DNA from: Pseudomonadota bacterium
Lineage (GTDB): Bacteria; Pseudomonadota; Gammaproteobacteria; Pseudomonadales; Azotimanducaceae
Length of the DNA: 34,230 nucleotides
Direction of reading: 5' to 3'
Assembly: GCA_022571865.1 (NCBI GenBank)
Contig: JACZXA010000015.1
Coordinates: forward strand, 1 to 34,230
In this document: positions 31,167-34,230 of the stretch, one piece after another
Position numbering within the stretch: position 1 is the first letter of the stretch
Layout of the letters: the number at the start of each line of letters is the position of its first letter
Translations under genes and position numbers: made by a program
Notes under the pieces: generated by a model
The model's database searches: none
What the model saw: the letters and a program-made list of their open reading frames with translations, nothing else
Told to the model about the DNA's origin: nothing

Positions 31167-31652
31167 TTGGAACCCATCCTGGTAATTACCACGGGCGGCA
31201 CCATCGACAAGGTCTATTTTGACGCGAATAGCGATTTCGAAGTAGGCGATTCGGTGGTGGGCGATCTGTTGCGCCAGGCCAATGTGAACCAGCCGTTCGA
31301 GGTGCTCGGTGTGCTCAGAAAGGACAGTCTGGAGTTCACGGATGAGGATCGGGGTCTGGTCAGGGACGCCGCGGCTGCAAGGCCTGAAACACGTATCGTG
31401 GTTACCCACGGCACGGACACCATGACCGAAACCGCAAAAACACTGACCGCACTTGAAGGCAAAACCATCGTGCTCACCGGCTCTCTCGCCCCCGCTCGTT
31501 TCGCACAGACCGATGCCACCTTTAATGTGGGCATGGCATTTGCCGCTGTTCAGACGCTCGCGGCTGGTGTCTACATCGTCATGAACGGCCAGGTTTTCGA
31601 AGCAGACCGGGTGAAAAAGGATCGAAGCAAAAACGTGTTCGTTCGATGTTAA
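31167..31652 (+). CDS. Asparaginase-domain protein, half-length
   Basis: The 161-residue protein carries only the N-terminal catalytic domain of the L-asparaginase family: ILVITTGGTIDKVYFD with the nucleophile Thr, VLRKDSLEFTDEDRG, and IVVTHGTDTMTETAKTL with the second Thr-Asp, followed by KTIVLTGSLAPARFAQTDA. Full-length enzymes are about 330 residues with a C-terminal domain that helps to form the site in the tetramer; this one ends cleanly at a stop. Small asparaginase-domain proteins of this size are known, so it is likely intact. Translation starts at TTG with a strong GAGGAGG site. The next gene, a D-aminoacylase-like amidohydrolase, follows after 25 bases, so both probably act on amides. 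Confidence 0.85.
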   Translation: MEPILVITTGGTIDKVYFDANSDFEVGDSVVGDLLRQANVNQPFEVLGVLRKDSLEFTDEDRGLVRDAAAARPETRIVVTHGTDTMTETAKTLTALEGKTIVLTGSLAPARFAQTDATFNVGMAFAAVQTLAAGVYIVMNGQVFEADRVKKDRSKNVFVRC

Positions 31653-31677
31653 ACTCAATCCCTGAGGGAGAAACACC

Positions 31678-33369
31678 ATGACATACGATCTGCTGGTCAA
31701 AAATGGCACGGTAATCGACGGTTCAGGCGGCGCACGCTATCGGGCCGACGTTGCGGTCAAGGATGGCCGAATTGCCGCCATTGGCCGAATCAACGAAAAA
31801 GCGTCGTCTGTGATCGACGCTGAAGGTCATGTGGTATCTCCCGGGTTCGTGGATGGACATACCCATATGGATGCCCAGGTGTTCTGGGATCCGATCGGTT
31901 CGTGCTCTTGTTATCATGGGGTAACGAGTGTGGTGATGGGTAACTGTGGTTTTACCCTGGCACCCTGCCGGGAATCCGAAGCCGATCTCGTATTCCGCAA
32001 TCTGGAAAGGGCGGAAGACATTTCCCGCGAAGCCATGCTTGCCGGTATCGATTGGAGTTGGGAAACGTTCCCGGAGTTTCTCGACGCGGTGGATGCGTTG
32101 CCAAAGGGTATCAACTACGCCGGATATATCGGTCACTCGGCCCTGCGCACCTATGTGATGGGGGAGCGGGCATTTACCGACCCCGCAACCGACGACGACC
32201 TCAAGAAGATGTGTGCCGAAGTGCAACAGGCGGTGATTGCTGGAGCTGTCGGGTTTTCGACCTCACGCACTCGCAATCACCTCACCACAGACGGTCGTCC
32301 AGTTGCAAGTCGCATAGCAGAATGGGAAGAGGTGCGTGCGATTGTCAACGCGGTGGGCGAAACCGGTAAAGGGATATTCGAGTTGGCTGGAGAAACACCC
32401 GGGCGCAAACCGGAACGGATTCGTGATTATTTCGGCCGCTTGAAGGATCTAGCGGTTGAGTCAGGGGTTACCCAGACCTGGGGCATGTTCAGCACCCGCG
32501 TCGCGCCTGACTTGTGGCGTCCCTATTTTGACCTGCTCGACGAGACCGCGGCCGCGGGTGGGAGGATGATTGCTCAGGTGCATAGTCGTGCACTGAACGT
32601 GCTGCTCTCTTTCAAAGCTCATACGCCGTTCGATAACTGGGACGTGTGGAGAGATCTGCGGGTACTGCCACTCGAAGAGCAGAAAGCGAAGCTGGCTGAC
32701 CCGGAATTCAAAGCCAAGCTCGTTGCCGTCGCGAGCCGGGAGTACACGGGTCCCCGTGCGGTGGGTGCAGAAGCAAGACCGCCGAACTGGGATTGGGTGT
32801 TCCCCATGTCGAACATGGATCCCGATCAGATGAGCATGACGGAAATGGCGGCTCAGCGCGGCGTACACCCCGTGGAACTCATGATTGATCTGTCACTCGA
32901 GCATGACTTCGAGATCTTTTTCCGCCAGCCGATCGCAAACGAAGATCAAGATCATGTGTTGGAGATGATGAAACACCCCCGCTCGGTGGTGACCTTCTCC
33001 GATTCCGGCGCCCATGTCTCACAGATAATGGACAGTTCGTTGCAGACTCATCTGTTGAGTTATTGGGTGCGCGAGAAAGAAGCAATGACCCTCGAAGAAG
33101 CGGTTCGCCAGATTACCTACAACACGGCAACCCTGTGGGGTTTACATGATCGAGGGCTCATCCGCCGAGGTATGGCGGCTGACCTGGTCATATTCGACCC
33201 GGAAACTGTCGGCGCGCGGATGCCGGAGGTTGTGCAGGATCTACCCGCGGGTGGGAAGCGGTTGAAACAGACGGCCGTCGGCATCAAGCACACGGTCGTA
33301 AACGGCGAAATTCTGCTTTCTGACAACGAGCATTCGGGTGCGGCTCCGGGAAAACTGCTACGGTCATAA
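31678..33369 (+). CDS. N-acyl-D-amino-acid deacylase-family amidohydrolase
   Basis: A 563-residue metal-dependent amidohydrolase of the D-aminoacylase family: LLVKNGTVIDGSGG, the metal motif HTHMD at 61-65, VVMGNCGFT with metal-ligand Cys90, YIGHSALRTYVMG, RMIAQVHSRA, and FSDSGAHVS with the catalytic Asp. The C-terminal small beta-domain returns as GLIRRGMAADLVIFDPETVG and KHTVVNGEILLS. The family removes acyl groups from N-acyl-D-amino acids, or acts on related D-hydantoins and dipeptides. The ribosome-binding site is GAGGGAG upstream of ATG 31678. It sits 25 bases after the asparaginase-domain gene and is the last protein gene of the GC-rich part, followed by tRNA-Arg. Confidence 0.92.
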   Translation: MTYDLLVKNGTVIDGSGGARYRADVAVKDGRIAAIGRINEKASSVIDAEGHVVSPGFVDGHTHMDAQVFWDPIGSCSCYHGVTSVVMGNCGFTLAPCRESEADLVFRNLERAEDISREAMLAGIDWSWETFPEFLDAVDALPKGINYAGYIGHSALRTYVMGERAFTDPATDDDLKKMCAEVQQAVIAGAVGFSTSRTRNHLTTDGRPVASRIAEWEEVRAIVNAVGETGKGIFELAGETPGRKPERIRDYFGRLKDLAVESGVTQTWGMFSTRVAPDLWRPYFDLLDETAAAGGRMIAQVHSRALNVLLSFKAHTPFDNWDVWRDLRVLPLEEQKAKLADPEFKAKLVAVASREYTGPRAVGAEARPPNWDWVFPMSNMDPDQMSMTEMAAQRGVHPVELMIDLSLEHDFEIFFRQPIANEDQDHVLEMMKHPRSVVTFSDSGAHVSQIMDSSLQTHLLSYWVREKEAMTLEEAVRQITYNTATLWGLHDRGLIRRGMAADLVIFDPETVGARMPEVVQDLPAGGKRLKQTAVGIKHTVVNGEILLSDNEHSGAAPGKLLRS

Positions 33370-33432
33370 CGCGGGCTGGGCACAAGCTGGCATAGCTTCG
33401 TCGAATCTGCTGGCTTAAACTGCCCGTTCTGC

Positions 33433-33509
33433 GCGCTCCTGGCTCAATTGGATAGAGCATCGGGCTTCGAACCCGAGGGTTGCAGGTTCGAGTCCTGCGG
33501 GGCGCGCCA
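33433..33509 (+). tRNA. tRNA-Arg (anticodon UCG)
   Basis: The 77 bases fold as a standard cloverleaf. The acceptor GCGCTCC pairs with GGGGCGC (one G-T pair), the D stem is GCTC/GAGC, the anticodon stem TCGGG/CCCGA has loop CTTCGAA, and the T arm is GCAGG-TTCGAGT-CCTGC. The 3' CCA is encoded. The anticodon TCG (33467-33469) reads the Arg codon CGA. The gene lies about 60 bases after the deacylase and just before the composition change. tRNA 3' ends are common integration sites, but no second copy of the 3' segment is seen in the window. Confidence 0.95.
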
Positions 33510-33588
33510 TATCCGTCCTTGTCCAGTTGTTTTGTGCCCCCAATGCGGTCATTGACTTAATGAATTAATGAGTATTTCTTCGAGTTGA
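33510..33588. other. Composition boundary between GC-rich genome and AT-rich tail
   Basis: Between the tRNA and the first foreign codons the sequence becomes AT-rich. A 7-bp inverted repeat (GCGGTCA at 33545-33551 and TGACCGC at 33586-33592) frames an AT-rich palindromic core. No gene, integrase or att-like repeat is recognisable. The true joint lies somewhere between about 33,510 and 33,610 and could not be placed to the base. Confidence 0.5.
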
Positions 33589-33813
33589 CCGCTAATCCAC
33601 ATCAACGGAAATCTGCTCGACATACTTAATTCCTTAAAAAGTTCTATTGATGGGCTTTTTGTAGTTCCAGAAAAGGATCTTGTTGAATTAGCAAAATCAA
33701 AAAAACCTTACGTTATTTGTTTTGTGGGGATTAATGGCAGCGGAAAAACAACAAGCATTGCTAAAGTCACTAAGCTATTCAAGGATAATGGCTTAAGTGT
33801 TGTTATTGCTGCA
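33589..33813 (+). pseudogene. ftsY: ftsY fragment (SRP receptor GTPase), archaeal-like
   Basis: This open frame has no start codon and about 75 codons. It contains NLLDILNSLKSSIDGLFVVP, then KKPYVICFVGINGSGKTTSI and AKVTKLFKDNGLSVVIAA. This is the start of the NG domain of the SRP receptor FtsY: the P-loop is GINGSGKTT, and the PYVI-FVG lead-in with VVIAA fits archaeal-type FtsY, in which SDTFRAGA normally follows. Instead the frame passes directly into a SecE-like tail. All downstream GTPase motifs (DTFRAAA, DTAGR, TKLD) are missing. The codons are AT-rich, unlike the rest of the window. It is a gene fragment, either from an assembly joint or from a real deletion. FtsY would dock ribosome-SRP complexes at the membrane; this piece cannot. 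Confidence 0.7.
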
Positions 33814-33873
33814 TTTTTGGGTGCCGCTGACTATGGCCTTAATAATCTGTTAGAGTTTTTGCTAGCTATTTAA
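33814..33873 (+). pseudogene. secE: 3' end of a secE-like gene, fused in frame to the ftsY fragment
   Basis: The last 19 codons before TAA read FLGAADYGLNNLLEFLLAI. This resembles the end of the single C-terminal membrane helix of bacterial SecE (FLGA.DYGL..LL.LL). It stops one base before the nusG start, and secE-nusG is the canonical bacterial order. The rest of secE is absent; the preceding codons (VVIAA, 33799-33813) could belong to either ftsY or secE and are the probable joint. The match is short and from pattern memory, but the position supports it. Confidence 0.55.
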
Positions 33874-33874
33874 T

Positions 33875-34230
33875 ATGCCAAAGCAAACTTCTAATCTTGG
33901 CAAGCGATGGTATGTGCTGCATACTTACTCTGGATACGAGGAAAATGTAGCGCGCAACTTAAAGCAGCGAATTGAATCACTTGATATGGGTGATAAAATT
34001 TTTGATGTGATTGTGCCGACCGAAACTAAAATTAAGATTAAGAATGGAAAGCGCTCTACGGTCACCGAGAAAATCTATCCAGGATATGTAATGGTAGAAA
34101 TGCTCGTAACTGATGACTCTTGGTATGTGGTTCGCAATACCCCGAATGTTACTGGTTTTATTGGAACAGGGACAACTCCAACACCAATCGCAGAAGAAGA
34201 AGTAGCGTCCTTGCAAAAACGAATGGGCAT
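33875..34230 (+). CDS. nusG: Transcription elongation/antitermination factor NusG, N-terminal part
   Basis: From ATG 33875 an open frame of 118 codons runs off the window end. It reads KRWYVLHTYSGYEENVARNL, KIFDVIVPTETKIKIKNGKR, KIYPGYVMVEMLVTDDSWYV and VRNTPNVTGFIGTGTTPTPI, which is the NGN domain of bacterial NusG in full. The C-terminal KOW domain would lie beyond the edge. NusG binds RNA polymerase and couples it to Rho or to the ribosome. Low GC, many AAA/ATT codons, the short insert-free NGN domain and the lack of a ribosome-binding site all recall Patescibacteria (CPR) rather than the proteobacterial genes to the left. No shared promoter or gene context with them is seen. Confidence 0.88.
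   Translation, partial: MPKQTSNLGKRWYVLHTYSGYEENVARNLKQRIESLDMGDKIFDVIVPTETKIKIKNGKRSTVTEKIYPGYVMVEMLVTDDSWYVVRNTPNVTGFIGTGTTPTPIAEEEVASLQKRMG

Follow-up and report, generated by a model that had tools for sequence, protein, structure and literature searches.

Host DNA, an ftsY piece and a secE-nusG piece of CPR type joined at the end of a gammaproteobacterial metagenome contig: a very probable assembly artefact

The right end of contig C208 carries, behind a D-aminoacylase-like gene and a tRNA-Arg gene, fragments of ftsY, secE and nusG that follow one another within about 700 bases. The window, that is, the whole stretch of DNA analysed here, is this entire contig (G000:C208:1-34230, 34,230 bases), and the odd stretch is therefore a true contig end and not the edge of an excerpt. 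C208 belongs to a metagenome-assembled genome of 4.56 Mb in 315 contigs, which is 93.31% complete with an estimated contamination of 0.41%, an estimate that gives no sign of a foreign tail in C208. The features are as follows.

31678..33369, + strand: amidohydrolase gene (D-aminoacylase-like) of the host; PF07969, E 4.3e-35, with relatives in the same family
33433..33509, + strand: tRNA-Arg (tcg) gene of the host, called by ARAGORN; it adjoins the same gene in four of 16 relative loci
33517..33600, no strand: interval that would hold the first joint, from host to ftsY piece; the similarity of relatives ends at 33516/33523, and an in-frame stop lies at 33586-33588
33601..33813, + strand: part of FtsY that lacks both ends and covers the P-loop and the N-terminal side of the GTPase domain, probably of archaeal type; TIGR00064 and a PDB ranking with control
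33790..33813, + strand: word of 24 bases coding for GLSVVIAA, which fits FtsY and SecE and is the likely place of the second joint
33808..33873, + strand: SecE C-terminus of CPR type, stop codon included; 72.7% identity with locus L029 across 22 aa
33875..34228, + strand: first 118 codons of a nusG of CPR type, the rest of which lies beyond the contig end; PF02357, E 2.5e-30, and 86% to L029

FtsY-like, SecE-like and NusG frames are thus all present past the tRNA-Arg gene, as the original prediction had read them. It had also placed a drop in GC directly after the tRNA gene. The drop is real, from about 0.57 to 0.39 (by 500-base steps, 0.576 in 33001-33500 against 0.388 in 33501-34000), but it does not fall exactly at the tRNA end, as positions 33510-33550 still have a GC of 0.54. 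In order to see how unusual such an end is for this genome, the terminal 700 bases of 61 contig ends were fetched and 60 were scored, C204 being dropped because it was N throughout. These were both termini of every contig from C1 to C20 (20 starts and 20 ends), the starts of 18 contigs among C200-C218 (the window's own start included), the end of C79 and the end of the window, so that both window ends are within the 60. The right end of the window came last, with a GC of 0.390 and a likelihood z of -5.2, while the runner-up reached -2.9. The background consisted of 167 inner tiles of 700 bases from the same genome, the lowest GC among which was 0.464; these tiles also trained the likelihood model, which makes the background slightly tighter than the real one. 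As only one of the 60 scored ends looks foreign, foreign ends are no general fault of the host assembly, which counts somewhat against an artefact.

The aminoacylase gene was matched to 16 loci of relatives (L010-L025). The tRNA-Arg (tcg) gene is adjacent in four of them (G019, G022, G013 and G011), there is no tRNA within the fetched flank of the amidohydrolase gene in ten, and in two, from G001 and G002 of the host's own genus, the sequence stops within the amidohydrolase gene; 12 of the 16 loci were unusable for comparing downstream genes. In blastn searches of 33300-34230 against the relative loci, similarity extended no further than 33516 (G019) or 33523 (G022). Together with the GC of the bases just past the tRNA, this places the first joint between about 33517 and 33600. 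All four relatives that have the aminoacylase followed by tRNA-Arg carry other genes in the 1.2-1.5 kb past the tRNA. Going by names read from translations, these genes differ among the four, except for a RibB-like gene common to G013 and G011. The original prediction had called the order of genes abnormal, and only part of this stands: the aminoacylase with its tRNA-Arg recurs among relatives, but the foreign continuation is absent from all four usable ones, which is where the proposed search for the same arrangement in related genomes has led. From the share of loci with the tRNA and the point where similarity ends, tRNA-Arg beside the aminoacylase gene is an arrangement already present in the family, and the sequence that follows it in C208 is not. 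Four genera of the family (L010, L013, L014 and L015; window 33433-33523) have the tRNA-Arg (tcg) gene next to that of the aminoacylase, and the DNA beyond varies. The true host continuation was not found by way of two homologues of genes that follow the tRNA in relatives: neither the C86 locus, homologous to the gene past the tRNA in G019 (YdbL-like by its translation), nor the C276 locus, homologous to the RibB-like gene of G011, has a tRNA.

The clearest part of the tail is its last part. The NusG frame scored 105.2 bits against PF02357 (cut-off 22.2), and against TIGR00922 it reached 124 bits over positions 1-104 of the 172 of the profile, below the cut-off of 135.7 because the contig ends inside the gene. 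Among the loci listed, the best match was a Komeilibacteria locus (L029, MHKO01000011.1), with 86% identity over 118 aa. We kept 80 of at least 556 confirmed NusG matches; 72 of the 80 bear the titles of lineages that we take to be CPR and eight are titled just 'bacterium'. The last 24 or so residues before nusG correspond to the end of SecE and share 72.7% identity over 22 aa with the L029 SecE. The SecE call comes from this comparison with CPR loci, the Pfam SecE model giving a weak match below its cut-off on that frame (E 0.08). The order secE to nusG is also that of L029, but about 270 bp lie between the two genes there compared to 1 bp in C208, indicating that the tail comes from a different species than L029. 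The NusG of the host, on C79, is 39% identical to that of the tail. That host nusG (G000:C79:17318-17611) is incomplete too, as C79 ends within it. Judged by protein similarity, the stretch from about 33,790 to 34,230 comes from a Komeilibacteria-like CPR bacterium and comprises the last part of its secE and the first part of its nusG.

The ftsY piece has a different affinity. Its frame (33601-33810), bounded upstream by the in-frame stop at 33586-33588, matches TIGR00064 with E 2.5e-14 and 53.2 bits over positions 68-114 of 279, far from the 260.7 bits at which the curated model calls a complete FtsY GTPase domain. Against the PDB, 3dm9 came top (48 bits), followed by 5l3s (44.9), 5l3w (44.6) and 6cy1 (44.2), and FtsY structures of E. 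coli type scored about 29 bits. We take 3dm9, 5l3s and 5l3w to be archaeal FtsY, 3dm9 from Pyrococcus furiosus, and 6cy1 to be that of the bacterium Legionella. The same 69-residue stretch of the host FtsY, used as a control, ranked E. coli-type FtsY top with 51.9 bits, with 6cy1 at 35.1 and 3dm9 at 32.7. The piece shares with 3dm9 the pattern KPYVI.FVG.NGSGKTT.IAK around the P-loop, although it holds only about 70 residues and is cut at both ends. The residues after the P-loop are IAK in the piece, whereas all ten host-phylum FtsYs inspected (host and L112-L120) have IGK. An ftsY query matched 98 of 100 genomes of the host phylum, host included, the best other match reaching 41.5 bits, and the host's own FtsY is encoded on C270. 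On the strength of the PDB ranking against the host control, the residues after the P-loop and the best other match, we hold that the ftsY piece is not the host's. An archaeal origin is likely, but the label is weak for a piece of 69 aa in which Legionella 6cy1 (44.2) follows close behind 3dm9 (48). The 'CPR- or archaea-like' character given to the tail beforehand fits both pieces, secE-nusG being of CPR type and ftsY probably of archaeal type. Viral contigs yielded no confirmed relative of either the ftsY or the nusG piece.

Could both pieces nevertheless come from one genome? Our data argue against this. A sample of 145 genomes from the phylum to which L029 belongs gave no match to the ftsY query and matches to nusG in 140, which makes the two pieces no natural neighbours. 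The FtsY model was above its cut-off in none of 13 CPR genomes (weak matches in three) compared to all 14 control genomes. With ftsY missing in both samples, a fusion of ftsY to the secE seen here is not the usual order in that lineage. Moreover, 17 of the 19 CPR loci examined have a full-length secE frame upstream of nusG, with its own N-terminal part; in an 18th, L029, the full frame appears in a longer stretch, and in L051 none was found.

No component of the signal recognition particle (SRP) was convincingly found in the same 145 genomes (G038 and G150-G293). Besides the absent ftsY, PF00448 (SRP GTPase) matched in 46 of the 145 at E up to 0.001 and exceeded its cut-off in three, with short, weak matches of 22.7-24.5 bits. 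Under strict filters that recovered small SRP RNA in 11 of 14 controls, none was found in the 145, nusG in 140 serving as positive control. An excerpt from PMC8080830 describes two SRP subunits as absent in many CPR bacteria, and as far as that excerpt goes the absence of SRP parts in this phylum is already known in outline.

The way in which the ftsY and secE pieces meet suggests that they were joined at a short word common to both. The translation across the second joint reads ...KDNGLSVVIAAFLGAADYGLNNLLEFLLAI and then a stop. The SecE of L029 reads VIGVSLAVAAFLGAIDYGFN at this place, and host-phylum FtsYs continue there as AAGDTFRA (nine of ten) or GAGDTFRA (one of ten), so that GLSVVIAA fits both proteins. 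For 1e8 distinct bases, a simple estimate gives about 1,100 21-mers shared by chance and 4.4 for 25-mers. The reading frame is kept across the junction of ftsY and secE, as it would be in a third of random joints; this counts somewhat against an artefact, but would be explained if the shared word codes for the same residues in both parents.

Of the accounts that place the tail in a living cell, one would have a mobile element integrate at tRNA-Arg and bring foreign DNA with it. The change in composition that starts just past the tRNA gene and the DNA that differs beyond it among the four relatives are what such a transfer would leave. However, no element genes were seen: by eye there is no integrase among the listed open reading frames of 31500-34230, three proteins having been scanned against families and the far side of an insert lying off the contig. 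Furthermore, the tail consists of fragments of housekeeping genes, of two affinities, that run into each other, and the host retains its own nusG and ftsY. We consider tRNA-directed transfer very unlikely, because it would have to deliver two unrelated, fused gene fragments. A single foreign source for the whole tail, CPR or other, with ftsY directly before secE, was likewise tried and rejected. It would account for the continuous frame from ftsY into secE and for the similar GC of the two pieces (0.33 and 0.41), but it is contradicted by the ftsY counts in the 145 and the 13 CPR genomes, by an ftsY that is cut after its P-loop and by the N-terminal part with which CPR SecE normally begins, and we give it hardly any weight. 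That an uncultured organism truly carries the hybrid frame, an FtsY of archaeal type whose P-loop start leads into the last SecE helix directly upstream of nusG, is less credible still and borders on the negligible.

A more serious competitor is another kind of artefact, in which the three sources were joined in chimeric DNA molecules that arose in amplification or library preparation, rather than by a walk through the assembly graph. Two joints within about 300 bases would fit such molecules, and the word shared at the second joint, known here only from C208, may cover fewer than 24 bases in the true parent sequences. On the other hand, two independent events would be needed in one short stretch, along with enough reads to assemble, and the 24-base word at the second joint fits both proteins. 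This origin of the joints seems to us possible but rather unlikely. In either case we infer that the joints were made in library making or in assembly, not in the cell.

The tail is by far best explained as a chimeric contig end, since its composition is foreign, its genes have two affinities and are truncated to either side of an internal joint, the contig ends about 700 bases further on inside nusG, and the host copies of nusG and ftsY lie elsewhere, on C79 and C270; the stretch sits at a contig end, in an arrangement absent from relatives. The original prediction of a misassembly is borne out, and its assignment of the last 650 or so bases to another organism is right as to their foreignness, in GC and gene affinities, though not as to one source, there being at least two. 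We are thus highly confident that the last 640-720 bases or so are an artefact of metagenome assembly, with host sequence to about 33,516, a probably archaeal ftsY and then a Komeilibacteria-like CPR secE-nusG, and that contig C208 combines at least three sources. C208 would be correct until just past tRNA-Arg and would then have been extended by way of a short ftsY piece, probably from an archaeon, into secE-nusG, an operon of a Komeilibacteria-like CPR bacterium, ending inside nusG. The second joint probably lies in or next to the 24-base word, most likely as a walk of the assembly graph through this short shared word, and such a walk would yield exactly this in-frame hybrid. Chimeric contigs in which sequence of several genomes is linked through shared k-mers are described in an excerpt from PMC7299287. 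C208 resembles these interspecies chimeras in mixing several genomes in one contig, but those treated in that excerpt join mainly related species, whereas distant lineages meet in C208.

The tail is an ordinary artefact, no real feature and no biological discovery, and its relevance is to curation only: cutting C208 from about 33,517 removes the problem. If C208 stays untrimmed, gene prediction could credit the host genome with a hybrid of FtsY and SecE and with an additional NusG, and these could be mistaken for cross-domain gene transfer.
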